From the IMG/VR virus record IMGVR_UViG_3300049460_000385, positions 1 to 44,894 of that record: a stretch of DNA of 44,894 bases. The stretch is one strand, 5' to 3'. Below are positions 1,335 through 43,567 of the stretch, piece by piece. The translations under genes and the position numbers were made by a program. This DNA is from a virus. The notes under the pieces are model-generated. The model was not told the DNA's origin and did no database searches. It saw nothing but the letters and a program-made list of their open reading frames with translations. Numbering within the stretch: the stretch's first letter is position 1; each line of letters starts with the position of its first letter.

Positions 1335-1356
1335 TGGTGCGGCACCAGGAGTCGAA
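1335..1356 (-). repeat. Degenerate attachment site, 3' end of tRNA-Thr
   Basis: Twenty-two bases match the end of the tRNA-Thr copy at 11724 (TGGTGC-GGCACCAGGAGTCGAA) with a single-base deletion, then diverge. It probably marks the far (left) end of the genomic island. Imperfect copies of the island integrase arm repeat (CTACCCCTA at 1409-1417, CTATCCT at 1421-1427) follow just inside, as expected for an attachment arm. Confidence 0.6.
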
Positions 1357-1638
1357 AAGTTGTATAACTATATGTGGCGCAATGTTTTTAATTGAATAGT
1401 TTTGAGTTCTACCCCTAAAACTATCCTGGGCGCTTACCGCTCGATTGAAAACTTTTATAGGTTGGTGTGACTGGTAATGATTTTTTCGGTATTCTGTTTG
1501 AGAGTTTGTGAAATTTATTTTTGTATAATCAAATTGTCGAGCGTAACTGGTTAAGTTGGCGATTTTTGTGTGCGTGAGTTGCCTTGTGGTGTCGTTTTAA
1601 GCGGAGTGTGGATCTGAGTCGCGCAAATCTCGTGGTGA

Positions 1639-1675
1639 TTAAGCCGAGCTAAAAGTAGCATCGGCTTAAGTTTTT
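1639..1675 (+). terminator. Hairpin with T5 tail
   Basis: TTAAGCCGA (1639-1647) pairs with TCGGCTTAA (1661-1669), with an additional inner GCT/AGC pairing, and TTTTT at 1671-1675. It lies between the island left end and the end of the leftward cargo operon. In the minus direction the hairpin is not followed by a clean T-run. The 1357-1638 stretch around it is AT-rich and has no gene I can support. Confidence 0.5.
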
Positions 1676-1676
1676 A

Positions 1677-1811
1677 CTAGATCTTTGGCACCCATCCATT
1701 ACGTTCTGCCAGTACTTGCCACTCCGGCTTTCCAGTTAGGATTAAGTCAGAGCAATATTTTACAAGGTCTTGTATCGGGTGTTCTTGTGCATTAATTAGA
1801 TTCCCACCGTT
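1677..1811 (-). pseudogene. C-terminal remnant of an unknown protein
   Basis: Reading the minus strand, an open stretch of about 44 codons ends in TAG at 1677-1679 and is closed upstream by another stop at about 1812. The peptide contains NAQEHPIQDLVKY, then GKPEWQVLAERNGWVPKI at the C-terminus. It has well-ordered amphipathic composition and a Trp-rich tail that reads like a real protein terminus, but there is no start codon. I take it as the tail of a truncated gene. I do not recognise the parent family with certainty. Confidence 0.4.
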
Positions 1812-1853
1812 CTAGATTTCTAATCTCTTGGGTTTTCAGTTTTTATGAGTTTC

Positions 1854-2216
1854 TTAACTATATGATAGATAAATGTTCTCATTGGATTTTAGTTGTTGGT
1901 ATATGGATGTTAATTCTTTGATGTATGAAAAGCTTCCCCTGATTTCTTTCACGGTCGGACTGTTATCCAATTGTTTGAAGATTGAAAGGAGTACCTCTTG
2001 CCGTTCATCTTCAATCATTTCAAGTAGAGATCTGCGGTTTTTGTCAGTGAGCTCTGTGGCGTTAACTTCATGCTTTTCTCCCTCGACAGTTAGGGAAACA
2101 TCTTCGTACTTAACCTTACTTGATAGCCCGATTTTTGCTAGTCGCTCGTAACAAAAATCCGAAACGGAAATTGTTGTCTGTTCATTCTTGGTGTCAAAAA
2201 ATGTAATATCTAACAT
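1854..2216 (-). CDS. 120-aa protein of the AAA cassette, unknown
   Basis: Last gene of the leftward AT-rich cassette. Its ATG (2214-2216) overlaps the stop of the preceding gene as TAATG, a translational-coupling arrangement. The protein starts MLDITFFDTKNEQTTISVSDF. It appears to have a beta-rich first half (KVKYEDVSLTVEGEKHEVNATEL) and a helical second half rich in Glu, Lys and Gln (LLEMIEDERQEVLLSIFKQLDNS). There is no Cys/His cluster, no membrane segment and no recognisable catalytic motif. Coupling to the AAA+ ATPase suggests a partner, substrate or regulator of that ATPase; that is inference. I do not recognise the family. Confidence 0.7.
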   Translation of the reverse strand: MLDITFFDTKNEQTTISVSDFCYERLAKIGLSSKVKYEDVSLTVEGEKHEVNATELTDKNRRSLLEMIEDERQEVLLSIFKQLDNSPTVKEIRGSFSYIKELTSIYQQLKSNENIYLSYS

Positions 2217-2464
2217 TATTCGGTTTCCTTCTTCTCTTTTGTCTCTAGCTCTTTTTTAATGGTTTCCCTTAGCCGGTCTATTTCAGCTGGCTCAACACCC
2301 TCGTATAACGTAACACCTCCCCGATCGAGAATTGCCTTTGTTTTGTCGGAGGCCTTGGCTTGGATTATGAGAATGCCTACCGTCCCTTTATCAACAATAT
2401 CTTGTGCTTGAGATGGGAAAATGTTTTTCTTTGTTTTAACTTCTCCGAAATCGTCGTCACTCAT
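2216..2464 (-). CDS. 82-aa protein of the AAA cassette, unknown
   Basis: ATG at 2462-2464 with a strong ribosome site (AGGAGGAG, 6 bases upstream). It overlaps the end of the 75-aa gene by 8 bp and ends at 2216, where the next ATG begins. The sequence MSDDDFGEVKTKKNIFPSQ leads into a compact hydrophobic strand (GTVGILIIQAKAS), a basic turn, a second strand region (GGVTLYEGVEP), and a highly charged C-terminal helix rich in Lys and Glu. This reads as one small alpha/beta domain plus a coiled tail. No family is recognised. Because it is stoichiometrically coupled to the neighbours, it is likely a component of the same complex. Confidence 0.7.
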   Translation of the reverse strand: MSDDDFGEVKTKKNIFPSQAQDIVDKGTVGILIIQAKASDKTKAILDRGGVTLYEGVEPAEIDRLRETIKKELETKEKKETE

Positions 2465-2684
2465 CTGTTTCTCCTCCTGAGTGCTTGTACTTTCCTAGGT
2501 ATAAATCTAGTGCCGCAATTAATTCAGATTTTTTGTCTGCTGGGTAAATAAAATCCCCCCTAGGATCATTGTTGACGGAAGGAGTGACACTAATCCCATG
2601 AAGTTGGCCTATCTCAACGACAAGCTTGATAGCATCTCTATGTTCTTCAAGTTTTTTTATCATTTTATCTTCGTCAGTAGACAA
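2457..2684 (-). CDS. 75-aa protein of the AAA cassette, unknown
   Basis: TTG start at 2682-2684, chosen because an ideal ribosome site (AAGGAGG) lies 8 bases upstream and overlaps the stop codon of the AAA+ gene. The protein (MSTDEDKMIKKLEEHRDAIK and onward) has an acidic/basic N-terminal helix, a central GISVTPS segment, NDPRGDFIYPADKK, and a helical LIAALDLYLGKYK near the end. It is soluble, with no known motif. Tight packing between the ATPase and the 82-aa gene suggests a dedicated partner. Function unknown. Confidence 0.68.
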   Translation of the reverse strand: MSTDEDKMIKKLEEHRDAIKLVVEIGQLHGISVTPSVNNDPRGDFIYPADKKSELIAALDLYLGKYKHSGGETDE

Positions 2685-2697
2685 CGCGGTTGCCTCC

Positions 2698-3513
2698 TTA
2701 TTTCTGCCTTTGTTTTAGGGTGATTTCATGAAAGGTCTGAGCTTCTTGGAATTCTTTAATGTCTAGATTTCCTTCGGTGCTTGAGGTTATGTTTCGCATG
2801 TAAGCTCTAGAAATAATGGATTTTATTTCTCCAAGAGTATATTTTTTCTCTAGATATGATTTGTATATTTGGTTGGTTGCGGTGTCGTCAATTTTTATGT
2901 CGGCAATTTCGCACATTTGCAGGAAGGCGCGTTTGAATTGCTTGTTGTCTAAAACTATATTGAAGTCTTCTTTGAAGTAAAACCTCCTTAGAATGGACGT
3001 GTCAATGCTTTCTTTAATGTTGGTGGTGGCGAATACGATATATTTATATATGTCTTTGGTTCTTACAAGTTCGTCTATTATTGTATTGAATGTTAGTAAG
3101 ATCCGCTTTATGCTTTCGTTGTCGTTTTGGTGTCGACTAATTGTGAATGAGTCTACTTCATCCATGACTAAAAAGCAGTGAGAATTGTTATCTTCTATTT
3201 CTCTTTGTATGGCGTTGAAATATTCTCTCAAATTGGAGGACGATTCGCCAAAGTTATGTGAAATTAACTCGTCGATGTTTAGTCTTTTTAAATCTATGTT
3301 GTAATCTTTTTTTAATCTTTGATAGATAGCGGTTGCGGCCGAGCTTTTGCCTGTGCCAGGGTATCCGTCCAGTAAGAATGTTGGATATATTGATAGTAGC
3401 GAAAATTTTTCAATTCTATCGTTTTCGATATCCAAAAATGCTTTGCAGTACGTGTAGATTTGGTCTAGTTTTCCTTCCAAGCCATACAGGTTTTCAAATG
3501 GACTTTGATTCAT
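2698..3513 (-). CDS. AAA+ ATPase (single module)
   Basis: A 271-aa classic-clade AAA+ ATPase. Visible motifs: Walker A GYPGTGKS (about 50-57), Walker B FLVMDEVD (114-121), sensor 1 ATTN (162-165) and the arginine-finger region TSILRRF (172-178). A sensor-2-like LGEIKSIISRA follows in the C-terminal helical domain. The start at ATG 3511-3513 is chosen for its ribosome site (GAGAAG) and because the domain begins there; an upstream in-frame start would overlap the helicase gene. There is no N-terminal substrate domain or protease, so it likely remodels a partner, perhaps one of the three tiny proteins encoded directly after it. It is AT-rich, unlike the helicase gene 30 bp upstream, so it was probably acquired separately. 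Its biological role is unknown; phage defence is an inference from context. Confidence 0.85.
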   Translation of the reverse strand: MNQSPFENLYGLEGKLDQIYTYCKAFLDIENDRIEKFSLLSIYPTFLLDGYPGTGKSSAATAIYQRLKKDYNIDLKRLNIDELISHNFGESSSNLREYFNAIQREIEDNNSHCFLVMDEVDSFTISRHQNDNESIKRILLTFNTIIDELVRTKDIYKYIVFATTNIKESIDTSILRRFYFKEDFNIVLDNKQFKRAFLQMCEIADIKIDDTATNQIYKSYLEKKYTLGEIKSIISRAYMRNITSSTEGNLDIKEFQEAQTFHEITLKQRQK

Positions 3514-3542
3514 ATGCTTCTCAATTAAATCCTGGTTTGAAA

Positions 3543-5453
3543 TTACAGTCTCTCGATTTCTTCCGCAGTGAACCACTTGTTACGCAGCGCCGCGGCAATA
3601 AGCGCTTCCGGATCCTTCGTATAAGCCACCAATGCCAAGCTTTTTTCTGCACGAGTACATGTCACATATAGTAAGCGCCGTGTACGAGCGGTAGCATCCT
3701 CGGCCGTCTCTGCAGTAGGTGTACGGCTACCCCCTGTCACTGGAGTCGCTTCGAAGAGTTTGTCGTAAGAAAACAGAAAGCCGCGGGCATCGCTATCGTC
3801 GAGGATCACCAGGACGCGTTCAAATTCGAGCCCTTTCACGCCCTGATGTGTACCCAGGGGACCTTTATCACTTACGTACTCCGCGAACGGGATCGACTGC
3901 CTATACGGTGTCTCCAGGAATGCTCGCCAAGCCTCCAGGCTGGCTGGTGACCTCTCTTCTGGCGCTTGCTCTTCTCCCGGCTCGCTCTCTTCGTCGGCCA
4001 GATCGATGTCGCTCTCTTCAACTCCATCGGCAACAAAGGGGCGTAGAGCATCAGGAATTTCGAATAAACGATGTTTTGCGACGCACTCCAGCACAGCTAG
4101 AAACTTTGTTTCCTGATGGCCCGTATCTAGGGCAATGAGTGCATCTACAGCGTCGCGGATTGGTCGTAGCGGATCATCTGTATGAGCGAGCCGCGCGATA
4201 GCTATGCGCTGAAGAAGGGGCGACGTAGCACGCAAATGCGCCATCACTGCGAAGCCATCCCCCATACGCGCGGCGGCAATAAGCGGGGCGACCCGATCGG
4301 TGAATAATCTGAGCCCGGCTAGGTCTCCAGTGCGCAGTCCTGTCGAAAGGCGTGAGTCTTGGTTGAGCGCTTGAAACATTTCCAGAAAGCCACGTCGTGA
4401 TGCTGCCATGTGATGCTCGAGCGTCAGGGCTTTTACCGCCCCTTCTTCAAGCCACTCGAGGTCGTTGCACAAATCGGCCATTCGGTCACGCACGCGTCGC
4501 TCAAGGGCGGGCTTATCATGAACATCGTTGGGAGATACAAAAAGGCGGACAACACCGATTTCGCTGTCTTCGCGGGCAACCTGGTGTTTGCCATCAACCG
4601 GCTCCCGGAGGACGTTTCCGAGGGCGATCACGCGTTGGGGGGAGCGATGATTAAGGAGCTTAGCCGGACGTGCCCAGTCAGCGGGGACCAAACGTTCAAG
4701 CTCAGGATGACCATCTAGGAAAATGCGTTGCATGGTATCGCCGAATAGGCCGATCGCAAATTTTCCCTTGTGCGCGGAAGCCAGAGCAAAGAAGGCTTCC
4801 ATCAGTCCTTTATTCGTATCCTGGCTCTCGTCTACAAGCAAGAAGGGGTATCTGTTGACCAAGATCGCCTGCATCGATGGCTTGGTTTCGATAAACGCAG
4901 CGGTGATTTTTAGCACCTCAGAGTGAGATAACGAATCCTGCCCGAAGTTGTCACCGTTGGGGCTATAGGTAAACCGCCGAGGGACACTAAGCCATTCAAT
5001 TCGCTTCATCGTGGATGCGATGGCTCTCTCGCGGTCTAACGCGGCCTTTGTGCCAGGACGCCCCTTTGCCTGCTTCTCGTGTAAGTCGGCCAGTTCGGCC
5101 GGAAGTCTGCTAAGAAGCCACGCCTGGATATCACTATGGTAGGACTCAATATGGCGCCAGCAGAAACTATGGATCGTCGATATAGGAAACAGTGGATCCT
5201 CTCCGACGCGTTCGGCGATTTCGTCGGCTGCGACATTCGTATAGGTAATCACTGCGATCTTCTTGCCTGCCCGCCGGAAGGTCGCACCATAATCCTCGCG
5301 GAAGGTGTCGAGCGCCCTTTTCAGAGAGCGCGTCTTACCAGACCCTGCCCCGGCGTAAAGAAAGAAGCTCTGAGGGGCGGCGGGATTCAAGCAAGCCCGG
5401 ATTAGCGCATCAGCGCTCTCATCGAAGTCTGGCGCTACCTTTTCAATTATCAT
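3543..5453 (-). CDS. UvrD/PcrA-like superfamily 1 helicase (Gabija GajB-like)
   Basis: A 636-aa SF1 helicase. Start at ATG 5451-5453 with a GAGG ribosome site; it overlaps the nuclease gene by 11 bp, so the two are translationally coupled. Motifs: Walker A AGAGSGKT (34-41), motif Ia TYTNVAA (about 70-77), STIHSF (92-97), Walker B DESQDT (208-213), GDTMQRIF (238-245), a late GxKGLEFERV-type motif (THQGVKGLEFERVL), and motif VI RRLLYVTCTRAE near the C-terminus. UvrD-like helicases next to OLD nucleases form the two-gene Gabija antiphage system, where the helicase senses or processes DNA ends for the nuclease. Length exceeds typical GajB (about 500 aa), so I call it Gabija-like rather than canonical. 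Confidence 0.88.
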   Translation of the reverse strand: MIIEKVAPDFDESADALIRACLNPAAPQSFFLYAGAGSGKTRSLKRALDTFREDYGATFRRAGKKIAVITYTNVAADEIAERVGEDPLFPISTIHSFCWRHIESYHSDIQAWLLSRLPAELADLHEKQAKGRPGTKAALDRERAIASTMKRIEWLSVPRRFTYSPNGDNFGQDSLSHSEVLKITAAFIETKPSMQAILVNRYPFLLVDESQDTNKGLMEAFFALASAHKGKFAIGLFGDTMQRIFLDGHPELERLVPADWARPAKLLNHRSPQRVIALGNVLREPVDGKHQVAREDSEIGVVRLFVSPNDVHDKPALERRVRDRMADLCNDLEWLEEGAVKALTLEHHMAASRRGFLEMFQALNQDSRLSTGLRTGDLAGLRLFTDRVAPLIAAARMGDGFAVMAHLRATSPLLQRIAIARLAHTDDPLRPIRDAVDALIALDTGHQETKFLAVLECVAKHRLFEIPDALRPFVADGVEESDIDLADEESEPGEEQAPEERSPASLEAWRAFLETPYRQSIPFAEYVSDKGPLGTHQGVKGLEFERVLVILDDSDARGFLFSYDKLFEATPVTGGSRTPTAETAEDATARTRRLLYVTCTRAEKSLALVAYTKDPEALIAAALRNKWFTAEEIERL

Positions 5454-7746
5454 CTCGGTCCTCAGTTCCCTGCATTTCGCTCTGAGCGATGTCCTTACCG
5501 ACTGCCCCTTCAAACCATCTGAGACCGGCCGCGATATAGCTTGGCGGTTTGAGCGCTTTGGGGTCTTCTAGCATGAGGCAGTCAAGCGCGAACGCTGCTT
5601 TCTCGGCCGTTTTCAACAATTCAAAAAGCTCATCCTCAAGGTCATCCCCGGACAGATCCTGAGCGACAATGCCGCGAACCTTAGCCGAAGTGATCGAGCC
5701 TTCGATTTTTCCAGCAACCGCTAGGTTCTCCAAAATCAAGGCGTCTTCAAAGGTCCGCGGAATGATGAGATTGCCGTCTTCAGCAGCCCCCTTTACTTTG
5801 ACTGGCTTTTGATAGGCGACATAAAGCTCATAGTCGCCGCCAGCCTTTGAGATGTGCCCATCGGGCGGTAACGCGACGAGCTCATCAATGAGTTTTTTCC
5901 TAGGGTGCCACTCCTTGAGGACTGAGTTTGCGGTTTGCTGAGCTTTGCCCTGTTCGGGGCGAGACGACTTCCAGCGAGTTGTTTCTCGCTTATTTTTGTC
6001 AACAATCTTTATCGCGGAAGTCGCATCTAAATCGCCAATGATCAGGGTTGCGATACCGAGCGCGTCGACCAGATTGCGGAAGCTGTGCACGTGACTTCCG
6101 CCTAGCTCGAGCAGCGTAACGTAGCGCCGCGAGAGTTCAGGGAAATGATGGCGGATAAAATGAGGCACCAGAATGCGCTCTGCCTGCCCCTCGACGAAGA
6201 TGACACCGTCTGCGAAAAAAAGATCGCAGTGAGTCGCCTTGAGGTAACGTTTTACGAAGCGCTTTGTCTCGTCCCCGTCACCGAATATGTAGGATAGGTT
6301 TGCCACAGTGGTGGTCGGCGTCTCCCCCATACTCGCCGCCGGCCGGCGCCGAAAATAGCGCAAATTTGCGAAGTCCGCTTCGTGCGCGACGTGGCTTGAG
6401 TGCGTACTGACGATCAGTTGAGTGCAATAATTTTCAGCAGTACCGAGATCAGTGTGCTTTCTGAGCAGGTCATAAGCTTTATTAATGAAGACTTGCTGGA
6501 CTTGTGCATGTAGATGGGCTTCGGGTTCCTCTACGAGTACGAGATGCAGTGGCTGTATCTCGTGTGACACGTCGGCGCCCTCGACAATGCCTGCCTTTTC
6601 TACACGCATCCACTCATCGCGGAAGCCCATCAACATGAACACCATGGCGATCAGGTTCTGGTAACCGAGCCCTGAATAGTCCTCGGGTAGTTTGAGAGTG
6701 TTGGTGCCGTCTCCTGAGGGATCCGCAACCTGATACTGCACGGACGATCCGTGCTTGAGCCCATCCGTACCCCTAAGAAGCGTGGATATTTTGAGCTTGG
6801 GGTTACTCATGCCGGGATAACCCAGATCCTCCAGCTCTTGAAAGGCAGAAGAAAAGCCTTCCTCAAGTCGCGCGTCAAAGCTGCGCTCAGCCGCTTGAAT
6901 TGCACCGAGCGCTTCGTAGTCCTTATCCGAAGGTGTCTTCGACGGGTCGAGATGGCGATCGTAATAGGAGCGTAACTGGTCCGAGAGGCGACGTTTGAAC
7001 CGACGATTGTTCGCCTCCCCTTTGTCGTCACTCCCGTCGTTGCTGGTAGCGTCGGCAAAGTCGCGCTGCGCGGCGATTTCATCAATCTTGATGAGTTTTT
7101 TGAAAGGCGGATGCTCGAAAGCAAGTGCGCTGGCGGGGAGCGTTTGTGGCGTCGCTAGACCGCTTCTTCCAGGCGGAGCAACAGCCGCAGGATCAAGAGG
7201 GTAGGCTAAGAGCTCAAGGTGTGCCTGTAGCCGGCGCTCAAGGAAGTCAGTGAGATTGCGGGGCCAGACCGCAATTTTGATCGACTCACCGCTCGGCCCA
7301 ACGATAGCGGCGTCCCGCGCCGCACCACGTTGCGCAATATACTCGCTCCTTAGGTTTTCAAGATTTTTTATTCGAAACGCAAGTCGAACCCCCAGCAGCC
7401 CGCCGGACCAATCTAACGTTGGTAGGATATCGACGACATACTGGATCTCGCGAAGCGGAACATCAAGCCAGACATCCAACGAAGGAAGGAGCGAATCCAG
7501 GTCTACGGTGGGCGCCGTACCGACCTCCCACTCGCTGCCCAGTAGATCGATCTTGGTCCAGTTGGCAATCGTAACGTCGCGAAGCACCAAGCGCTTTGGC
7601 GATAGTAGGAAGATGCGCAGCGCCAACATCGCAGAGGTCTTTCCGCTGTTGTTGGCACCGACCAAAATCGTCGTATTTTTATCAAAATCGAGATGGGTAG
7701 ACTTCAGCTTTCGAAAATTAGACAGCTCCACGAACTTGATTCGCAT
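5443..7746 (-). CDS. OLD-family ATP-dependent nuclease (Gabija GajA-like)
   Basis: A 767-aa protein with the OLD architecture: an SMC/RecF-like ABC ATPase followed by a TOPRIM nuclease. The start is ATG at 7746 (ribosome site GGGAGG, five bases upstream); an upstream in-frame start at 7809 lacks that support. Visible: MRIKFVELSNFRKL, Walker A GANNSGKT (30-37), Walker B/D-loop VLVEEPEAHLH (about 400-412), an H-loop STHSSHVAHE, then TOPRIM signatures FVEGQAE (about 515) and GDLDAT (about 570). Class 2 OLD proteins are encoded beside a UvrD-like helicase, as here. The neighbourhood implies a Gabija-type role in which the nuclease cleaves invading DNA. It is longer than usual GajA, with a long insertion between the ATPase halves and a roughly 200-aa C-terminal extension. 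Confidence 0.88.
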   Translation of the reverse strand: MRIKFVELSNFRKLKSTHLDFDKNTTILVGANNSGKTSAMLALRIFLLSPKRLVLRDVTIANWTKIDLLGSEWEVGTAPTVDLDSLLPSLDVWLDVPLREIQYVVDILPTLDWSGGLLGVRLAFRIKNLENLRSEYIAQRGAARDAAIVGPSGESIKIAVWPRNLTDFLERRLQAHLELLAYPLDPAAVAPPGRSGLATPQTLPASALAFEHPPFKKLIKIDEIAAQRDFADATSNDGSDDKGEANNRRFKRRLSDQLRSYYDRHLDPSKTPSDKDYEALGAIQAAERSFDARLEEGFSSAFQELEDLGYPGMSNPKLKISTLLRGTDGLKHGSSVQYQVADPSGDGTNTLKLPEDYSGLGYQNLIAMVFMLMGFRDEWMRVEKAGIVEGADVSHEIQPLHLVLVEEPEAHLHAQVQQVFINKAYDLLRKHTDLGTAENYCTQLIVSTHSSHVAHEADFANLRYFRRRPAASMGETPTTTVANLSYIFGDGDETKRFVKRYLKATHCDLFFADGVIFVEGQAERILVPHFIRHHFPELSRRYVTLLELGGSHVHSFRNLVDALGIATLIIGDLDATSAIKIVDKNKRETTRWKSSRPEQGKAQQTANSVLKEWHPRKKLIDELVALPPDGHISKAGGDYELYVAYQKPVKVKGAAEDGNLIIPRTFEDALILENLAVAGKIEGSITSAKVRGIVAQDLSGDDLEDELFELLKTAEKAAFALDCLMLEDPKALKPPSYIAAGLRWFEGAVGKDIAQSEMQGTEDRDDN

Positions 7747-7809
7747 AGCACCTCCCGTGTGCCTTGGCTCTATCGAAGACGAGCGTAGTATGTATCTGGT
7801 GCGTCCCAT

Positions 7810-8059
7810 CTACCCGAAGATCGGTCAGAATAATGCCTCTAGGAACTCCATTTCCAGCTCTACCGAGGGTAAGCGAGGTAGCTGGTCATTCGGTAATTTG
7901 CGCATGCACGATCTGACAGACGTTTACGCGACGACCTGATGTTTTGGCATCATGGGCACCTCCATCTTGTCGCGTGCCTCTTCTCTATCGACAGGTGGTA
8001 TCTGACGTCCGCTTGTGGCCCGATCGCTGTCGGTCCTGACCATTAGCACCAGGTCCCAC
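7810..8059. other. Intergenic, presumed promoter region of the nuclease operon
   Basis: About 250 bp between the unknown 85-aa gene and the nuclease, outside both. It must hold the leftward promoter of the nuclease-helicase operon, because the gene on its right is transcribed the same way and ends at 8060. I could not assign clear promoter boxes. A plus-strand open frame crossing into the nuclease gene looks like antisense shadow. Confidence 0.35.
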
Positions 8060-8317
8060 TCAGAGATTGAAAACCCATGACTTTTCTAGACGTCGAGCGA
8101 GCAGCCGGACCGTTAGCATGTAATAGTACCGTGTCTCCTCACTGCGGTGGCTTAAGCGATGCTCGAGAAACCAAGCCACATGCTTTCTCTGCCAACCCCA
8201 AGGCGTTTCTCGCTGCCAGCGCTCTGCAATTTCAGCCTGGACGATTTTCGCTTGGCGCACATGACGCTGTCGGGTTGCGTGCGAGCCGGTCAGCACTCCA
8301 GCCAAGAACAGTTGCAT
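8060..8317 (-). CDS. 85-aa protein following the ICE-type recombinase
   Basis: Starts 14 bp after the recombinase stop codon and is read in the same direction. MQLFLAGVLTGSHATRQRHV leads into a Trp- and Arg-rich helical region (WGWQRKHVAWFLEHRLS) and a Tyr/Arg-rich helix (RYYYMLTVRLLARRLEK). The pattern resembles the SAM-like core-binding domain of tyrosine recombinases, so it could be an accessory DNA-binding protein for, or a fragment of, a recombinase. The ribosome site is weak, lowering confidence. I believe similar genes accompany this recombinase type in Pseudomonas islands, but cannot verify it. Confidence 0.5.
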   Translation of the reverse strand: MQLFLAGVLTGSHATRQRHVRQAKIVQAEIAERWQRETPWGWQRKHVAWFLEHRLSHRSEETRYYYMLTVRLLARRLEKSWVFNL

Positions 8318-8331
8318 GTCGAATTGCTTAC

Positions 8332-9312
8332 TTATCTCCGCCCACCGATGTAGGCAGCGACTACGTCAATCCGTCCATGGCCAAGTTCATGGCTGATCTG
8401 CCTCCGGGTCTCACGATCTAGATACCGATCTACCTGGCAATATTGGCCGCTGTTAATAGGCGCAGGGTATTGGGTGATTTGCTCATAGCGCTCACATGCG
8501 TAGGCTGCTCGTAGCTCATGGAAGCCTTGCAGATTGTGTGCATGCAGTATGTCCCGCGCAGGGCGGAGGATTTCTCGTAGAACATTCAGGTAGCTTTCGT
8601 GTGGAGCAATCAGGTTGTGGCTACCTGCAGGTGTCGCCTGCAGTGCAACCCCAAGTGCACGTCGGACATTTTCGTCCACTGCGATCCAACGTGGCGCCGA
8701 AGCGCCGGCGCGGCCGCCCTTGGTGCCGTCTTGAATGTTAATCCTGCCTAGGTCGTTAGCCTCGCGGCTTAGCCGTGGCAGGTCAGCCAAGATGGCCTCA
8801 CGCAAGCGCATGCCGGTGGCTCGCGCCAATAGAACGATCGCGGCAGCGCGTGGGTGATGATGACGGCATAGCGCATCGACGATCTGCTTAGCCTGTTCGC
8901 GGTCTTGGCCTTGCGGCACCGACAGTCGAACTCCAGTGCGCTGCATTCCCAGCGCCTTGCTCGGACTGTGCAACTTCACGCACTGATCACCGCGAAGCGC
9001 CGCCATGGTCCTGTTAACGCTAGATAGCCGATTTTGTGCGGTGCTGATGGCGAGATCATCGCGCCCAACCAGGTCACGCAGATACACCGCATAGTCGGTC
9101 AACACTTTCCGATCAATCTGTCGCGCATCATTGAAACCGGGGCCCTGATCGGAGCGGCACCACTTCACGAATGCCTGCCACCGATCACAGTGCGCTTTGA
9201 CCGTGCCGTAATGACCGCCACCGAACATGTCCTTAAGCGCCTGCGGCCCTGCGTAGCTCAATTGCCTGCCATAACCGAAATTGCGACCATCGCGTCTGCC
9301 CACCAATGCCAT
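8332..9312 (-). CDS. Tyrosine recombinase, ICE/Integrase_1 type
   Basis: A 326-aa protein starting at ATG 9310-9312 (ribosome site GAGGTGA). It has an N-terminal core-binding domain (YGTVKAHCDRWQAFVKWC, and RLSSVNRTMAAL) and a C-terminal catalytic domain with the Arg of ATGMRLREA, the His-x-x-Arg pair in FHELRAA, the second His in HELGHGR and the nucleophile candidate Tyr in VAAYIGG. This matches the SAM_2/Integrase_1 recombinases found inside integrative conjugative elements, distinct from the P4-type integrase at 10242. Substrate site unknown. It may be a leftover from an earlier element or drive an internal rearrangement. Confidence 0.78.
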   Translation of the reverse strand: MALVGRRDGRNFGYGRQLSYAGPQALKDMFGGGHYGTVKAHCDRWQAFVKWCRSDQGPGFNDARQIDRKVLTDYAVYLRDLVGRDDLAISTAQNRLSSVNRTMAALRGDQCVKLHSPSKALGMQRTGVRLSVPQGQDREQAKQIVDALCRHHHPRAAAIVLLARATGMRLREAILADLPRLSREANDLGRINIQDGTKGGRAGASAPRWIAVDENVRRALGVALQATPAGSHNLIAPHESYLNVLREILRPARDILHAHNLQGFHELRAAYACERYEQITQYPAPINSGQYCQVDRYLDRETRRQISHELGHGRIDVVAAYIGGRR

Positions 9313-9734
9313 GTCAGTCACCTCATCATTCGCTCTCCGATCCTCGCCCCACGTCATCCCGCCAAGAATGCTGAGTGTTATCAGGGATCAAGGCCCCTGC
9401 GACCTGTGGGGAATGTCCTCTACGCGGGACTTGCGGCTCCTTACGTCCGGGAGCAAGGGCATCTCATGATCTGGCCTCCTGAGCACCGTTGCCGGTGGGC
9501 GGGTGGAGGCTGCATTGGCTGACGAGACCAGCGCCGCGAGATCCTGAGCCAGGTGCAAGCAGCAATGCGATGACCGGGGCATGCCTGACTGTCAGTCAGG
9601 TGCAGTCCATTCCCTGGTCTGCGGCACCATCATCTACAGCGCTGTTGCTGGTGACATCGGCATTTGTCACGCCGATTGTCACGAGGGGGAATGCCGCAAA
9701 GCCTTGTGCGATCAGGGCTGCAGCAGTGGTAGAA

Positions 9735-9769
9735 GTGCCCGTCTCTTTCCAGAAGAAAGAGACGGGCAC
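9735..9769. repeat. Perfect 15-bp inverted repeat
   Basis: GTGCCCGTCTCTTTC, a 5-base CAGAA loop, and the exact reverse complement. There is no T-run on either side, so a simple terminator is less likely. It sits in the non-coding stretch between the two recombinase genes. Confidence 0.7.
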
Positions 9770-10129
9770 AGGTTGGTGCAACATTCGGCCAAGCGGATAG
9801 GTTGCTGCAGGGCAGCGAGGCACGGTGTATCTGGCGCACGAGCGCTATGTGTGTAAGAGCATCCATCACATGGGTAGTGACCGGGCGAGCTGCCGGATGC
9901 TAATCGCCCTTGGGGAGAACCACCGCGGGAGCGGCGTGACCTTTAAGGTTCGGGTCACCTGGGGTGCTGTCATCGACAGCGCTTGCAACTCCCGGTCTAC
10001 GCCTGTGGGCAATGTTCGTCAAGTAGAGCAATTTCAGGGTCTTGGCGCCTGTGGATAAAACTATCCCCCGGTGGACATCAGTGGTTTTCCACAGACGTAC
10101 GCTGTGCCAGCAGTTTTTTTCTTAGGTAT

Positions 10130-10174
10130 GGTCCTTTCAAACGGGGCGGCTTTGCAGCCCCGTTTGAAAGGACC
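10130..10174. repeat. Perfect 18-bp inverted repeat
   Basis: GGTCCTTTCAAACGGGGC, nine-base loop, and the exact reverse complement. It lies about 70 bp past the end of the P4-type integrase gene and may end its transcript, although no T-run follows. The flanking DnaA-box-like sites make an origin or protein-binding role possible. Confidence 0.7.
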
Positions 10175-10241
10175 CGCGCGGAGGAGCTTCATGCGGTGCT
10201 GTGGGTAACTTCACAGCGAGTTGAGGTGGTGGTGCGTCGGG

Positions 10242-11561
10242 TTACTCGGTCCTCTTGGCACTGCGAAGGCGCGTGACGTTCTCGCCCGTCTGCCTGGCAA
10301 ACTCATGCGGCGTCACATGGTCCTCGCGGTTTGCCTCCAGAAACCGGCTCCACCAGGTCATGATCATCCGGCGCTCTTCGAGGAACTCGGCCTTGTGGGT
10401 ATAGGCGGCCCGCACGTTGTTGCGTTCCTTGTGGCTCATCTGTCGCTCGATGGCCGTCTCTGACCACAGCCCGGACTCGACCAGCGCACTGCACGCCATG
10501 GCTCGGAACCCGTGGCCGCAGATATCCACCTTGGTGTCATAGCCCATCGTCCTGAGCGCGGCATTCACCGTATTTTCGGACATCGGTTTCCACGGTTTGG
10601 CATCTCCCGCGAACACCAGGTCGAACTTGCCGGTGATCGCGTGGATCTGCTCAAGCAAGGCCACTGCTTGCGGCGATAAGGGTACAAAGTGAATGTCCCC
10701 AGCCATCTTCGTACCTCTTGTGGAAAACGGCACGCCGTCCAGCGCCGGGCGGGTGTCGGGGATTTCCCAGATTCCGCGCTTGAGGTCGAACTCATTCCAA
10801 CGGGCGAAGCGCAGTTCACTGGAGCGTACGAATACATGCAACGACAGCATCACCGTGAGGCGCGTGAGCGGGCGACCTCTGTAGTTCTCGATGCATGCCA
10901 GTAGTTCTGGCAGCCGCGATAAGGGTAGTGCGGGTCTGTGAGTTACCCGTGGTGTCTTGATCGAGCCATCGAGGTCGTGAGCTGGGTTCGCTGTGATCAG
11001 CCGCAGCCGTTTGGCTTCGCGCATGATGCTTTGCAGGTAGTTCTTGATCCTGAGCGCCACGTCGATGGTGCCGCGCTTCGTCACGGCTTCCAGTGGTTGC
11101 ATGAGGTCGTGGGTGTCCAACTCAACGATTGCTCTGGCACCGATCAAAGGGAATACGTGAGTCTTCAAGCGGCTGAGCACTGTCTTGGCGTGGCCGGGCG
11201 CCCACTTGGGCACCATGCTCGCGTGCCAGTCGAGCGCAACGCTTTCGAAGGTGCGGCCATTGATCACGGCCTGGGTCTTGGCTTGTTGCTTGGACTGGAT
11301 CGGGTCTATGCCGTTTGCGAGCTGCTGCTTGATGTCGAAGCGCTTGCGGCGTGCGTCGCCCAGCCCGACCACCGGGTAGCTGCCGAGGGCGGTCAGGCCT
11401 TCGCGGCCATCGGGTTTCACGTACCTGAGCCGCCAGCCTTTGCGGCCGTTGGGTTGCACAAGCAGGTAGAGACCGTCGCCGTCGAAGAGCTTGTACTCGC
11501 GCTCTTTGGGCTTTGCCGTGCGACAGGCGGTGTCTGTAAGCGGGGCAGTGGTGCGGGCCAT
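10242..11561 (-). CDS. P4-type integrase of the genomic island
   Basis: A 439-aa tyrosine recombinase of the P4 family. The N-terminal DUF4102-like arm-binding domain has the hallmark LFDGDGLYLLVQPNGRKGW and LGSYPVVGLGDARR; a core-binding domain and the catalytic domain follow. Catalytic residues seen: Arg in VRSSELRFARW, HGFR in CGHGFRA, His in MSHKERN and Tyr in RAAYTH. It lies about 160 bp from the tRNA-Thr attachment core, the standard arrangement. Copies of TAAGGGTAG/CTACCCTTA overlap and flank its start codon and are likely arm-type sites, possibly also used for self-repression. It should insert and excise the island at the tRNA-Thr(TGT) 3' end. Confidence 0.92.
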   Translation of the reverse strand: MARTTAPLTDTACRTAKPKEREYKLFDGDGLYLLVQPNGRKGWRLRYVKPDGREGLTALGSYPVVGLGDARRKRFDIKQQLANGIDPIQSKQQAKTQAVINGRTFESVALDWHASMVPKWAPGHAKTVLSRLKTHVFPLIGARAIVELDTHDLMQPLEAVTKRGTIDVALRIKNYLQSIMREAKRLRLITANPAHDLDGSIKTPRVTHRPALPLSRLPELLACIENYRGRPLTRLTVMLSLHVFVRSSELRFARWNEFDLKRGIWEIPDTRPALDGVPFSTRGTKMAGDIHFVPLSPQAVALLEQIHAITGKFDLVFAGDAKPWKPMSENTVNAALRTMGYDTKVDICGHGFRAMACSALVESGLWSETAIERQMSHKERNNVRAAYTHKAEFLEERRMIMTWWSRFLEANREDHVTPHEFARQTGENVTRLRSAKRTE

Positions 11562-11630
11562 AAGGGTAGTCTCCGATATCGAAACGGACCTCTATCCTTA
11601 AAACTACCCTTATTAGCGCTGGCTACCCTT
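11561..11630. repeat. TAAGGGTAG arm-type repeats of the island integrase
   Basis: TAAGGGTAG at 11561-11569, CTATCCTTA at 11592-11600 (one mismatch), CTACCCTTA at 11604-11612 and CTACCCTT at 11623-11630. They lie between the integrase start and the attachment core. Related copies occur just inside the left end of the island (1409-1427). Integrase arm binding is inferred from position. Confidence 0.6.
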
Positions 11631-11654
11631 GGAATCCGACGGAACGCCAAAACG

Positions 11655-11680
11655 AAAAAACCCGCCAGAGGGCGGGTTTT
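11655..11680. terminator. Bidirectional terminator
   Basis: AAAACCCGCC, AGAG loop, GGCGGGTTTT: a 10-bp stem with A/T runs on both sides. It lies just past the 3' end of the tRNA-Thr copy and can stop transcription leaving it, or read-through toward the integrase. Confidence 0.75.
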
Positions 11681-11723
11681 CGGGGGTTCCAGAGATTTTG
11701 AAAGCCTTCTCTGGAACCTTGTA

Positions 11724-11768
11724 TGGTGCCGGCACCAGGAGTCGAACCCGGGACCTACTGATTACAAG
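11724..11768 (-). repeat. Attachment core: 3' 45 nt of tRNA-Thr(TGT)
   Basis: The minus strand reads from the anticodon loop (CTTGTAATC, anticodon TGT) through the T-arm (GGGTTCGACTCC) to GGCACCA, a perfect tRNA-Thr 3' half. Right of 11768 the sequence does not continue into the 5' half (no AGTCAGTTG-type D/anticodon stem), so this is not a working tRNA gene. It is the junction between the genomic island on the left and the prophage on the right. The complete gene is expected beyond 44894. Confidence 0.85.
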
Positions 11769-11810
11769 GAAGCTGGTCCATACATAGAAATCAAGGAGTT
11801 ACGCGATTCC

Positions 11811-11872
11811 TTGTTACGTGCTGATGCGCCAAAGCCCGCATTTTTAGCGGGCTCAGTATCCTTTGTTACGTG
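11811..11872 (+). repeat. TTGTTACGTG arm-type repeats, prophage left end
   Basis: Two exact copies, TTGTTACGTG at 11811-11820 and 11863-11872, with weaker GAGTTACGCG at about 11796 and AGTTACGCG at about 11904. A small hairpin (AGCCCGC/GCGGGCT, 11833-11853) lies between them. The same word recurs three times near the right end of the window, so these are best explained as integrase arm sites of the prophage. Confidence 0.65.
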
Positions 11873-11917
11873 GGATTTGCTCAGTCAGCAGGGCGGATAT
11901 GTCAGTTACGCGTGAGG

Positions 11918-12127
11918 CTATGCGTGCAGGCTTCCGGTGCGGGCTTCAAGTATGTGAGGGAGCGCGGATGGATCACTGGCCCATTGGGCATATTCGTCCC
12001 AGGTGAGGCCCAGATACTCATGGAGTAGGAGCCCACTACCAAAGATCCCAGCGTGCCAAGCAGTGACCCACCATTCAATATCATTCTCTTGCACCGCACC
12101 TTCTAGGTAACACTCCACAAATGTCAT
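11918..12127 (-). CDS. 69-aa prophage protein, unknown
   Basis: Read leftward immediately after the prophage integrase. The ATG at 12127 is chosen for its ribosome site (AAGGA, 8 bases upstream); two other in-frame starts lie at 12136 (ATG) and 12151 (TTG). The product (MTFVECYLEGAVQENDIEWW) is acidic and rich in Trp, with a C-terminal LGLTWDEYAQWASDPSALPHIL. It is soluble and has no catalytic motif. The location between integrase and attachment site is where phages often keep excision or small accessory genes, but it does not look like a typical basic excisionase. I do not recognise it. Confidence 0.6.
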   Translation of the reverse strand: MTFVECYLEGAVQENDIEWWVTAWHAGIFGSGLLLHEYLGLTWDEYAQWASDPSALPHILEARTGSLHA

Positions 12128-12147
12128 GTTGTTCATCCTTGGGTGGT

Positions 12148-13296
12148 TCAATCAGCGGAAGGGGAAACGATCGGAACACTATGATCATAGACGTCCATCA
12201 TCTTCGGATCGCGGTGGCCGCTAGCTTCCTGCTTGTCCGCTCTGTTGCCGGTGGTGTCCGTAATGCCCCGGCGCTTTAGGTCGTGCAATGCAAAACGCTG
12301 CTCAGGCGTAATGATTTCGTCTTTGAGCGCGAGGGTAATAAATCTTTGCCATGCAGTATCCAGGCTCGATTTCCGTAGCGCGCCGCCGTGGCTTGCGACA
12401 ATGATCGGTCGCTTGTCTGGGCTGATCGGGATTGGCGTTCTGCGCTTTTCCCAGATGTTGGAACGGTAGGCTTTCGCACTGTCCCAAACGGAGCGCAGAC
12501 GTGGCGTCCATCGAACAATGTTGTCCCGGCTTCCTTTCCGCCTGTTTGTCAGTATCCCTTCGTCCAGTTCGTTGGCATCAGTGAGCGTTACGACCTCAAT
12601 GCCTCTAAGTCTGCACAGATACGCCAGCTCCATCGCGATGGAAAGGTACTCCGGACATCCGCCTGGTTCGTTGCGGGCGAGCCTGCCACGGGCTGTCGCC
12701 CTGTCAATCAACTCGTCCATCACAGTCTGGATGGGCAGGCGGCGCTGTTTGCGTTCGATGGGCGCCTCAATGCCCAGCGCCGGGTTGACCTCAAGATAGC
12801 CACGATTCCGTCCCCACTGCAGAACTCGTCGGAGATATCGCAGGGCGTGTGCAGCTTTCGAGGGTGTGCCCTCGTCTGCCAATCGATCGACAATGCGCTG
12901 CACCAGGGCGGCGGTGAATTTCTTCACAGCAAGATCGCCGAGCGGCTTACCCAATTTAGTGGGGATGGTTAGCAGGACGTCGCGGGAGTCGCAGTAGTCA
13001 TCGTGCGTCTTTGGCTTGAGCTTTTTGTATCGATCGCTTTCATGAAATTTTGCACAGACATAACGAAGCGTGCCCCTGTCGACGTTCGACACCTCGTCCG
13101 TGATCCGGTGCAGTTCAGCTAGCGACACATCGGCAGGTGCCACGTTACGTCGGCGCTGTTTACCGGTTTCGTCCCTGTGAAGGGTGTACCAGACACCGCC
13201 GTCCCGATGATCAAAGTAAATGGCCGCGGGGAGCGCGGCCTGGTCGATATGAGCGGGTATGTGCGGATTGTGCTTCCGCTTGCGAGCTTTCTTCAT
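12148..13296 (-). CDS. int: Prophage tyrosine integrase
   Basis: A 382-aa phage integrase. The N-terminus is highly basic (MKKARKRKHNPHIPAHI) with a small beta domain typical of arm binding (GGVWYTLHRDETGKQRRR). The core-binding domain is about 90-190 (VQRIVDRLADEGTPSKAAHALRY is its central helix pair). Catalytic residues visible: Arg in CRLRGIEVVTL, His-x-x-Arg in HDLKRRG, His in ASGHRDP and Tyr in MDVYDH. The start overlaps the DUF4224 gene by 4 bp (ATGA). TTGTTACGT repeats at both prophage ends are its probable arm sites, and tRNA-Thr its probable target. Confidence 0.92.
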   Translation of the reverse strand: MKKARKRKHNPHIPAHIDQAALPAAIYFDHRDGGVWYTLHRDETGKQRRRNVAPADVSLAELHRITDEVSNVDRGTLRYVCAKFHESDRYKKLKPKTHDDYCDSRDVLLTIPTKLGKPLGDLAVKKFTAALVQRIVDRLADEGTPSKAAHALRYLRRVLQWGRNRGYLEVNPALGIEAPIERKQRRLPIQTVMDELIDRATARGRLARNEPGGCPEYLSIAMELAYLCRLRGIEVVTLTDANELDEGILTNRRKGSRDNIVRWTPRLRSVWDSAKAYRSNIWEKRRTPIPISPDKRPIIVASHGGALRKSSLDTAWQRFITLALKDEIITPEQRFALHDLKRRGITDTTGNRADKQEASGHRDPKMMDVYDHSVPIVSPSAD

Positions 13297-13505
13297 AAGA
13301 TGTCTGCGTCGTACCGCTCCGACAGGACCGGCCCAACGCCGCCCGCCAAATTGATCAAATCAATGGTAGTCCATGGCCCAGTTCGACCACGGAACATCCG
13401 TATGCCTTGTTCGGTCAGGGTCCGTTCCACGTCCGATCGGCGCTGATAGCCCGTTATACGCTGCAGATCCTCAAAGTCGAGGACCGATGCGGTTCCGTTT
13501 CCCAT
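13293..13505 (-). CDS. DUF4224-like small protein
   Basis: A 70-aa protein encoded directly upstream of, and overlapping, the integrase. It matches my memory of the DUF4224 domain: a start of the form FxDLQRITGYQRRSDVERTLTEQGI, then RMFRGRTGPWTTIDLI. It resembles a winged or ribbon DNA-binding module. Genes of this kind sit before phage integrases in many prophages and may act in excision or directionality; that role is inference. ATG at 13503-13505 is chosen (GAGA upstream); an in-frame ATG at 13517 is also possible. Confidence 0.72.
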   Translation of the reverse strand: MGNGTASVLDFEDLQRITGYQRRSDVERTLTEQGIRMFRGRTGPWTTIDLINLAGGVGPVLSERYDADIL

Positions 13506-40499: not shown

Positions 40500-40826
40500 A
40501 TGACGACCATAGTCGATAGCTTAGACGCAAGCAAAAGTGCTCGTTTAGATCTCAAAACGACAGAATTTGCAAAGGAATTTATCCGAAAAGCAGCTGCTAT
40601 CTCAGGTTTAGATATGACCTCGTTCATTATGTCTTCTGCGTTTGAAAAAGCAGAATCCGTTATGGCGAATTACAATAGAGTCCAGCTATCCGCTAGGGCT
40701 TTTGAAAAACTGCATGAGGTTTTACGTGAAAGTGAAACTGATGCGACGCCGACTGATGAGTTGGTTCGACTAATGAGGATGAAGAATGAACGCGCAAGAA
40801 CAAGAGAACGGAAACTACGTAGTTGA
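40500..40826 (+). CDS. DUF1778 antitoxin (TacA-like)
   Basis: A 108-aa RHH-type antitoxin. ATG 40500 follows an AGGTGA ribosome site; a GTG at 40491 is possible. It has the ribbon-helix-helix core typical of TacA/DUF1778 (ARLDLKTTEFAKEFIRKAAAISG, MTSFIMSSAFEKAESVM), then NRVQLSARAFEKLHEVLRES, the toxin-binding region, and a basic C-terminus. It neutralises the GNAT toxin and represses the promoter at 40298-40355. The gene is 41 bp overlapped with the toxin. Confidence 0.88.
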   Translation: MTTIVDSLDASKSARLDLKTTEFAKEFIRKAAAISGLDMTSFIMSSAFEKAESVMANYNRVQLSARAFEKLHEVLRESETDATPTDELVRLMRMKNERARTRERKLRS

Positions 40827-41346
40827 TACTCAGCTGAAGGATAATATCGAGAGTTACAAACTCTCAAAAAGTTTTTCTTGCGGCCAGCCGGCCCTTGATG
40901 ACTACTTTGTCTCTAAGTTGAAGCGTGCACTGAAAAGCGAAAATGTGGGAGCACTCGGCGTCGTTAATGAGCAGGGTGAGCTTTTCGGATTCTGCACGTA
41001 CACTTTCGAATTCCTTGATCGCGAAGCAGTGGCCACAGTGGCTCCGCAGAGCAACCAACCCCGTGAAGTGCCAGTAGTGAAACTGAGCGTGTTGGCGGTG
41101 GATGTTAAGTATCAAGGCCTTGGTATCGGTACTGAATTGCTGATGTATGCCTTGGAAAACACGCTGCGTGTTCATGAGATCATTCCTGTAAAGGGGTTGT
41201 ATCTCGACGCGGTGGCTAGCGCGGAAGTGTTTTATTCTAAGTTGGGGTTTAAGCAGTTGGATAACCCCTCGGTTCCGGCCGGGTGCATTCCAATGTTCAT
41301 GCCCATTAAAGTTATCGCGGCTGCTGTTTCTGTAAGCCAAGGGTAA
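40786..41346 (+). CDS. GNAT acetyltransferase toxin (TacT-like)
   Basis: A 186-aa GNAT-family toxin. It opens with the TacT-type N-terminus (YKLSKSFSCGQPALDDYFVSKL) and has the acetyl-CoA P-loop KYQGLGIGTELL (about 108-119) and the catalytic-type Tyr in EVFYSKLGF (about 147-155). TacT-like toxins acetylate the amino group of charged tRNAs and stop translation. Ribosome site GAGG before ATG. The pair is a moron of the prophage right arm and stabilises it or responds to infection. A terminator follows. Confidence 0.87.
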   Translation: MNAQEQENGNYVVDTQLKDNIESYKLSKSFSCGQPALDDYFVSKLKRALKSENVGALGVVNEQGELFGFCTYTFEFLDREAVATVAPQSNQPREVPVVKLSVLAVDVKYQGLGIGTELLMYALENTLRVHEIIPVKGLYLDAVASAEVFYSKLGFKQLDNPSVPAGCIPMFMPIKVIAAAVSVSQG

Positions 41347-41374
41347 TTTTCAGGCAGTTCCTGCCCGAGACCGA

Positions 41375-41394
41375 GGCGCCGTAAGGCGCCTTTT
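41375..41394 (+). terminator. Terminator of the TacAT pair
   Basis: GGCGCC, GTAA loop, GGCGCC, then TTTT. It separates the toxin-antitoxin pair from the following lone gene. Confidence 0.8.
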
Positions 41395-41431
41395 GTCTTT
41401 CTGGTGTCGGTAAAAATTCGAGAGGTGCTAT

Positions 41432-42628
41432 ATGGCTGAACGTTCTCATGTATTGATCATGCCTTCAGATGATTTTACAAGTGAATTGGCGATCAAGAAG
41501 ACGATTCTATTTTTTGATTCTGTAACCTTAGCGAACGCTCATGACGCCGCCTTAGTCAATAGCGAGGAGGTAGTCGAAGAATTTTCTGGCATGACGCTGA
41601 CTTGGTCTGGAAGAAATTCGTTCCCTAGAACTGAAAGTTACACCGATGAGATGGCTAGCGTGCTGCGAAGTACATCATCGCTTCAAAGTAGAGGTATTAT
41701 CCGCCTGACTCCTCCAAAGCCGATGCCTACGCTTGATCCAGGCATGAATTACACAATTTGGCATAGCGCAATCACCAGCGAAAAGCTTGTCAGCGCCGCT
41801 GCACCAGACCGATTTACTAGCGAGAAGCCCCCCTTGGGCGTGGCTGACTACATGCGCGGCCTAATTATGAGCATGGGTGGTGCAAAATCGAAATATGACG
41901 TTTTGGACAGCCGACCGCCGTTTGAGTTTTCAGATCGAGATCAAATTTGGACATTTTATGCGCACCTGAGGCTCGGCCGTGCACTGAAGTTTTTGCGCAT
42001 TTCCCATGCTTTAGGATTGACCCCGATAGCATTTGATACCCCCAATCACAGGATTTTAGACGCTAGTGCGGAATTCGAAAGCTTAGTGGTCAGGAACCAA
42101 GGGGCACAACGGGTCGACACAGTTCGTCAGGTACACTTCGATTTAGATATATTTGATCGTGAGGAGTTTCTGAAAGCGCTTGGTGAAATGAACTGGAACG
42201 AAGTTCAGCAGCTTAGAAAGTATGTCTTGCCGGGTATGAATAACCTAAGGTCTTATCTGCGTAGATCAATTCAGCTTCAAGGGCGGTCCTCAGAAGTATC
42301 TGTCGAAACTTATAGTAAGGAACTAACAAAGTTAAGCGCAGAATTCGAAGGGGCGAAACATAAGCTTGCTGAAGAGTGGGTGAAACTAAGGATTGCTGCG
42401 ATTACGAAGTTTGGTGGGGCAGTAGGTGGTGGGGCAGCAATCGATCAACTGGGTTTGGTTGGCACGACGATAGGGGTTCCTTGGGTCGATCTGCTTGTGA
42501 AAATATTCGCAGGTGGGGTAATTGGCGCTGCCGCGATTACAAAAGATTTGCAGGCTTACATCCCTGCGACTCTTGCGGTAAAACAACATCCTCTCTATTT
42601 CTCAGACAAGTATCTCGTGTCAAGGTGA
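41432..42628 (+). CDS. 398-aa protein of unknown function, candidate defence moron
   Basis: A lone gene behind its own terminator-separated space, at the accessory end of the prophage. Codon use is more AT-rich than the virion genes. The N-terminal two thirds are soluble and mixed (MAERSHVLIMPSDDFTSELA, IIRLTPPKPMPTLDPGMNYTIWH, DQIWTFYAHLRLGRALKFLRISHAL), followed by a helical stretch with coiled character (VETYSKELTKLSAEFEGAKHKLAEEWV). From about residue 323 to 370 it is Gly/Ala-rich and hydrophobic (FGGAVGGGAAIDQLGLVG, LVKIFAGGVIGAAAI), suitable for two short membrane segments. No known domain is recognised. The layout (sensor-like body plus membrane-active end) is one seen in abortive-infection proteins, but this is inference. 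Confidence 0.75.
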   Translation: MAERSHVLIMPSDDFTSELAIKKTILFFDSVTLANAHDAALVNSEEVVEEFSGMTLTWSGRNSFPRTESYTDEMASVLRSTSSLQSRGIIRLTPPKPMPTLDPGMNYTIWHSAITSEKLVSAAAPDRFTSEKPPLGVADYMRGLIMSMGGAKSKYDVLDSRPPFEFSDRDQIWTFYAHLRLGRALKFLRISHALGLTPIAFDTPNHRILDASAEFESLVVRNQGAQRVDTVRQVHFDLDIFDREEFLKALGEMNWNEVQQLRKYVLPGMNNLRSYLRRSIQLQGRSSEVSVETYSKELTKLSAEFEGAKHKLAEEWVKLRIAAITKFGGAVGGGAAIDQLGLVGTTIGVPWVDLLVKIFAGGVIGAAAITKDLQAYIPATLAVKQHPLYFSDKYLVSR

Positions 42629-43117
42629 AACTTTTTCGAGCATCAGTACACGACTGCTCGCTAGGGCGGTTTTGTAATAGAAAAATGAGTTTTCCTATCA
42701 ATCTGCGCCACCGACGAGATGTCACCAGATGCAGGTGCGCCAAACAGCAAACCGGCAGATTCAGAAAAAAATCTGCTGAAAAACCACTTATCCCCCTCCC
42801 GCCGACGGGCTTTGTGTCCTTTTTTTGTGCAAATTCGAATTGAGTGCAAAGGGTGCCGCTAGCCACGCGGGCTGCGGGGTTCCGCAGGCGATCAGCGTTT
42901 GCACGCTTTGCAAACTTTTGAAGAGAAATGCAATGCGGTGACACTCCGCGCCTCGATGCAGCGCCAGAGTGACCAATCCCCAGCCCCCACGTTTGCTGGG
43001 CGGAAAATAAAAAATAGCGCTTTCCCCCACATTTTCGAAATTGAGCTCGATGGTTTTTGACTGCCACGCCCGGTCAGACGGTTTTGCAACTGAACGGGCG
43101 TATGCCGCTTTGGGCGG
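42629..43117. other. Non-coding segment with overlapping minus-strand frames
   Basis: About 490 bp with no credible single gene. At least three minus-strand frames stay open together (for example 42537-43067, 42788-43147, 42892-43155), an unusual property also seen around phage C4/ash immunity regions. Local hairpins: AGCAGATT/AATCTGC-type pairing near 42754-42777, and GTTTGCA-CGCT-TTGCAAAC at about 42896-42914. I cannot say which frame, if any, is translated. Confidence 0.4.
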
Positions 43118-43168
43118 GGCCTGTAGCTGATCTGGTGGCTGGAACAACCTTTCACGAAATTACAGGCC
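43118..43168. ncRNA. C4-antisense-RNA-like structured element
   Basis: An outer 8-bp perfect stem GGCCTGTA (43118-43125) with TACAGGCC (43161-43168) encloses a conserved-looking hairpin GGTGGCTGGAACAACC (43134-43149) and TTTCACGAAAT. From memory this resembles the C4 antisense RNA of phages P1/P7 and the P4 immunity RNA. GTTCCAG occurs again about 70 bp downstream and could pair with the CTGGAAC loop. I cannot decide the transcribed strand. Confidence 0.5.
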
Positions 43169-43260
43169 TTGCAGTGAGTTTTGAAGCCTACCCGCTGGCT
43201 GCCAGAAATGCCTGGAAAAACGCTGGCGCACTGCCAGTTCCAGTTGAGGGCTGGGAAAAA

Positions 43261-43567
43261 GGTAATTTCGGGAATAAGAGATTCGGAGGGAGCTGCACGC
43301 CTTACAAGGCGGGGCTTTGAGCGATTACCAGAGAAGGTAATTTAGGGTAATTGAAAAGGTAATTTTTCTGTAAGTGGCTGATTTTAAAGGCTTTCGTAAG
43401 GGAAGAATCTAACCACCTCATAAGGTAAGTTGATTACTATAAAATTACCCTATTATTACCTTTAGCAACCCATCTCAAGCCGTTGATTTACAACGTTTTC
43501 CTGAAGATAGGTAAACTAGATTACCAAAATTACCGTTTTCCCATGGGTCAACATTAAATCGGTAATT
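43261..43567. repeat. Cluster of GGTAATT repeats
   Basis: Seven exact GGTAATT/AATTACC copies in 307 bp: 43261, 43336, 43346, 43358, 43443 (inverted), 43528 (inverted) and 43561. Several further GGTAA/TTACC variants occur (43325, 43424, 43456, 43510, 43521). The copies at 43336, 43346 and 43358 are spaced about one helical turn apart. These look like protein-binding iterons: arm sites of a lost integrase, or a replication or partition site. Confidence 0.65.

Follow-up and report, generated by a model that had tools for sequence, protein, structure and literature searches.

AAA+ remodelling ATPases of bacterial immunity are known mainly in company with a protease, as in IetAS, or as part of a HORMA switch, as in CBASS. 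In Type III CBASS, activation of the cyclase is regulated by HORMA proteins and the ATPase Trip13 (PMC9122588), and a survey of Pseudomonas islands found both that Gabija is a common hotspot system and that AAA+ ATPases without an assigned system also sit in such hotspots (PMC12629846). The locus described here, in a 44,894-nucleotide stretch of viral DNA (the window, i.e., the whole stretch that was analysed), has an AAA ATPase gene with three small genes behind it and a Gabija pair in front of it, at one end of an integrated island. Its features are as follows.

1340 to 1356: left att repeat CGGCACCAGGAGTCGAA, 17 bp, a tRNA 3′ end
1854 to 2216, minus strand: s3, 120 aa, pI 4.8, predicted beta-hairpin followed by a helical hairpin (low confidence)
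2216 to 2464, minus strand: s2, 82 aa, pI 5.1, predicted beta-alpha-beta-alpha-beta-alpha mini-domain
2457 to 2684, minus strand: s1, 75 aa, TTG start, pI 5.1, without relatives
3513 to 2698, minus strand: AAA ATPase, 271 aa, by Pfam AAA (1.7e-20) and alignment to 26 relatives
3543 to 5513, minus strand: gajB, UvrD-like helicase, PADLOC GajB 2.6e-227, 754 bits, full profile
5443 to 7746, minus strand: gajA, OLD-like ATPase/TOPRIM nuclease, PADLOC GajA 1.1e-271, 902 bits, with an OLD-like TOPRIM
8060 to 8317, minus strand: 85-aa gene, with an equivalent 91- to 105-aa gene behind the same integrase in sister islands
8332 to 9357, minus strand: second tyrosine recombinase (Integrase_1), whose relatives at 84–87% mark sister islands with different cargo
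10242 to 11561, minus strand: P4-type tyrosine integrase, adjoining the right att site
11730 to 11746: right att repeat, the second copy of CGGCACCAGGAGTCGAA, inside the apparent 3′ half of a tRNA-Thr gene

The original prediction placed 75-, 82-, and 120-aa genes behind the ATPase on the minus strand, and all four ORFs are found there in that order and are intact, with one correction to the start codons in that s1 begins with TTG. The junctions are as tight as had been claimed: an AAGGAGG ribosome site overlaps the ATPase stop TAA and lies 8 nt ahead of the s1 TTG, the s1 and s2 reading frames share 8 bp and GGAGGAG precedes the s2 ATG, and the s2 stop and the s3 start have TAATG in common. 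For the ATPase, a longer reading from a GTG at 3576, overlapping gajB, is possible. A chain of three ORFs, each of at least 60 aa and joined within 20 nt, was obtained in 1 of 5,000 sequences simulated by a Markov model with the same dinucleotide make-up, and the GC content of s1 and s2 by codon position (0.54/0.32/0.32–0.41) follows a pattern that looks coding. A single decayed gene was ruled out because the small ORFs all start independently, two of them (s1 and s2) behind strong ribosome sites. The four genes very probably form one functional operon.

None of the three small proteins has a domain match in Pfam, NCBIfam, PADLOC, or PHROGs, so the claim that they are without a recognised domain stands for these four profile libraries, and none of them was identified as a housekeeping protein or as a member of a known phage family. 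All three are acidic (pI 4.8–5.1) and hydrophilic. The s2 model, built from one sequence with a pLDDT of 79, has alternating strands and helices; resemblances to chaperonin apical domains (best E 0.017) and to restriction-endonuclease-like cores were considered, and the model is read as nothing more specific than a generic beta-alpha fold unit. For s3, a hairpin and two helices were modelled at low confidence, which is too poor for use, and a match to encapsulated-ferritin (E 0.3–0.5) is at chance level.

Relatives of s1–s3 were found neither in 72,556 plasmids nor in 2.9 million viral contigs, and 50,697 phages held none of s2 or s3. The genome search by sequence, with s2 and s3 as queries, covered 297 genomes from one unrelated phylum, and the two weak matches there proved false, the first lying antisense to an ftsA-like gene and the second being, in our reading, a CheB-like motif. 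The viral and genome scans require a shared short peptide, and in the plasmid, viral, and phage collections, searched at a level where only short-peptide or tblastn-level relatives are detectable, there is no second copy of the four-gene set. This absence means that the set is not common, rather than that it is unique. Because s1–s3 have no relatives and the set has no second copy in these collections, conservation does not support co-function. Of the proposed candidate new system, the dedicated operon partners are supported, and a conserved four-gene set is neither supported nor refuted.

The borders of the predicted integrated island are given by the 17-bp tRNA-end repeat, which occurs at 1340 and 11730, and therefore the island extends from about 1340 to 11746. 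It is a 10.4-kb, tRNA-integrated, Pseudomonas-type island in which the four genes are the terminal cargo. From the 11730 repeat the sequence runs on into what looks, in our reading, like the 3′ half of a tRNA-Thr gene; ARAGORN detected no complete tRNA anywhere in the window. The interval from s3 to the left att repeat contains a 44-codon open stretch (1679–1811, minus strand) that ends with QVLAERNGWVPKI and a stop, has no usual start codon, and may be what is left of a truncated older cargo gene; it had no match among the sequences compared. A start-less stretch of this kind, suggestive of a truncated gene, is what one would look for if the operon were the remnant of a larger system, with the ATPase and adaptor-like pieces kept and the main effector lost at the island end. 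We consider such a remnant quite improbable, since the four genes are all intact, with strong ribosome sites on s1 and s2, and the 44-codon stretch resembles none of the sequences compared.

The DNA of the four genes is AT-richer than that of its neighbours, as had been predicted, with a GC content of 35.4% in the ATPase gene, 39.0% in s1, 42.2% in s2, and 36.9% in s3 versus 55.4% in gajB, 54.1% in gajA, and 60.3% in the prophage. The low-GC stretch extends beyond s3 to about 1340, and Arg and Leu codon use in the four genes deviates as well, with AGA/AGG, CTA, and TTA preferred. Because the GC content differs so sharply, base composition indicates that the four genes were acquired separately from gajAB and have a separate origin. 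The base composition of the four-gene operon is foreign, and the operon is a recent acquisition. Outside the island, most of the remaining window (12148–40273) is a prophage; about half of a 24-kb stretch of it aligns with Pseudomonas phage UFJF_PfPro at about 77% identity. A second low-GC region (48%) lies at the right end of the window (40786–44675) and holds a GNAT-like gene (40786–41346) and a 398-aa gene; the gene at 44187–44675 resembles, by eye, a Panacea/SocA-type antitoxin.

Ten relatives of the Integrase_1 gene occur in IMG/VR. One sister island (L032, 7688–14235) has the identical plan, i.e., prophage integrase, P4-type integrase, Integrase_1, and then other cargo, and is bounded on either side by the same 17-bp repeat (at 7688 and 14219); it carries mainly a single stand-alone ATPase of 519 aa (11747–13306) that is weakly ORC-CDC6-like and has no PADLOC match. 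Elsewhere the cargo consists of SIR2 and PRTase (L036), a DpdB-like/DndB protein (L038), GmrSD_N (L041), or, in L039 (11241–15538), LmuB split into two genes of 352 and 422 aa together with an unknown 231-aa gene and an LmuA-like/ABC-3C CTD1 gene. In L034 (11946–14683), the cargo comprises a homologue of thymidylate synthase, an amino acid:DNA transferase/aGPT-Pplase3 gene, and an unknown gene of 286 aa between them, a set that suggests DNA base hypermodification genes as island cargo. The cargo slot behind Integrase_1 takes interchangeable, largely defence-type cargo, and the proposed defence-island setting is borne out in that the same slot holds other defence genes in sister elements with the same integrase. 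From the neighbourhood alone, an antiphage function of the four genes is plausible.

Sister islands that have this integrase do not carry the four-gene operon, so the four genes are not needed for island movement. This bears on an explanation in which they would serve the island itself as a selfish or maintenance module, either a toxin-antitoxin-like addiction unit or an aid to recombination or excision, with no direct antiphage role. Such a module would suit a position at the island end beside att, small acidic proteins that could be antitoxin-like, and genes known from one element only among the collections searched. As no toxin or antitoxin family gave a match in the four profile libraries and the genes are dispensable for movement, we regard this explanation as improbable.

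The neighbouring pair, which had been described as Gabija-like, is by profile a true, full-length Gabija, with GajA and GajB in tandem and nearly the whole of both profiles covered; this membership belongs to the pair and not to the four genes. The ATPase ATG lies 29 nt beyond the gajB stop, on the same strand and with gajAB upstream. No promoter or terminator was recognised in this gap, in a scan whose overall yield of sites did not exceed that for shuffled sequence. The four genes are probably transcribed together with Gabija. The same strand, the short gap, and the lack of a recognised promoter or terminator within it would also be expected if the four genes were a Gabija accessory module, read from the gajAB promoter and regulating or recycling the GajAB complex, but all three gajB relatives examined (Gabija loci L016–L018) are without the ATPase operon downstream, and the strong GC difference points to a separate origin, so that we think an accessory module improbable as well. 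The position behind Gabija would bear on whether defence systems acquire accessory regulators within one transcript.

The ATPase is a classic AAA+ protein with its motifs in one AAA module (Walker A GYPGTGKS, Walker B FLVMDEVDS, sensor-1 ATTN, Arg-finger region LRRF, and pore-loop region SHNFGES), and it scores 74 bits on Pfam AAA against a cut-off of 21. The Pfam match and the alignment motifs agree with the original prediction of a single-module remodelling ATPase that has no additional domain for substrates. Its best defence profile in PADLOC is IetA (73 bits, 8.9e-21), with TRIP13 at 51 bits, and on the NCBIfam IetA model it scores 67 bits, where the cut-off is 510. As a yardstick, a true IetA (L014) scores 391 bits on IetA and 57 on TRIP13, and a true Cap6 (L027) scores 57 bits on IetA and 394 on TRIP13. 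The ATPase reaches neither level, and because its 73 and 51 bits stand against 391 and 394 for true members, we place it in neither the IetA nor the TRIP13/Cap6 family; the cross-family score of 57 is comparable to its own two scores.

That IetA scores best, above the TRIP13 models, could be taken to mean an IetAS variant in which small proteins have replaced the peptidase. This is highly improbable, since 73 bits is near the level of the TRIP13-on-IetA match and far from 391, and no gene for an S8 peptidase IetS occurs among the neighbours or within the island; IetS is present at four other loci (L002, L004, L009, and L023). Among the 26 aligned relatives, a 4-residue insertion at residues 71–74 is common only to the ATPase and two CBASS Cap6 proteins, and the N-terminal helices are co-linear with those of Cap6; identity to Cap6 is 27–28%. 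A tree places the ATPase beside Cap6 with support of 25/77 on a very long branch, which may reflect long-branch attraction. No HORMA partner was found, in that s1–s3 match no PADLOC model, and the operon has no nucleotide cyclase. A Chryseobacterium AAA gene with a 77-aa gene (L005) looked similar and was set aside, since it proved to be the C-terminal portion, frameshifted, of a larger Bacteroidota protein that belongs to another operon. CBASS Trip13/HORMA is, by analogy only, the nearest working model for the ATPase.

By this analogy, the operon most likely encodes a remodelling ATPase of the Cap6-like kind together with small partners of its own, which would be antiphage or Gabija-regulating. 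The best explanation overall, which we put forward tentatively, is a recently acquired, intact four-gene operon whose Cap6-like switch would give an antiphage layer or tune Gabija. Against it count the lack of s1–s3 relatives and of a second set in the collections searched, the 25/77 support of the tree, the higher score of IetA than of TRIP13 models, and the three gajB relatives with no such operon behind them. We lean toward a role in defence or in island-host conflict; the Cap6-like switch mechanism, drawn from the CBASS comparison, is a doubtful possibility. In that mechanism, the ATPase would form a hexamer and pull on, or take apart, a complex made up of the acidic proteins s1–s3, as Cap6/TRIP13 acts on its HORMA partner, and its action would turn the complex from inactive to active or back. 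The switch would be tipped by infection or DNA stress, and the outcome would be either a second, independent antiphage layer or a tuning of Gabija. A new type of four-gene antiphage system, in which a Cap6-like AAA+ ring acts on the three-small-protein complex and not on HORMA, with one small protein sensing infection and one serving as the effector, seems unlikely.

Compared with IetAS, the ATPase is likewise a classic AAA+ ATPase in mobile defence cargo and has its best profile score there, but at 271 aa it is shorter than IetA (about 330–390 aa), lacks the S8 peptidase, and scores far under family level. CDC48/VCP-type AAA ATPases give the best solved-structure sequence matches (3.5e-19 and weaker), and the ATPase differs from them in being a single module without an N domain or a second ring. 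Gabija is the immediate upstream neighbour on the same strand, likely in one transcript, but the four genes are not part of other Gabija loci and their base composition differs. Type III CBASS, with Cap6/TRIP13 and Cap7 HORMA, likewise has a short stand-alone AAA ATPase beside small partner genes and shares the insertion at residues 71–74 and the co-linear N-terminal helices, whereas its HORMA protein is 165 aa in L027 and the four-gene operon is without cyclase or HORMA. If the proposal is true, the combination of one ATPase with three small partners of its own would add to the arrangements known from IetAS and CBASS.
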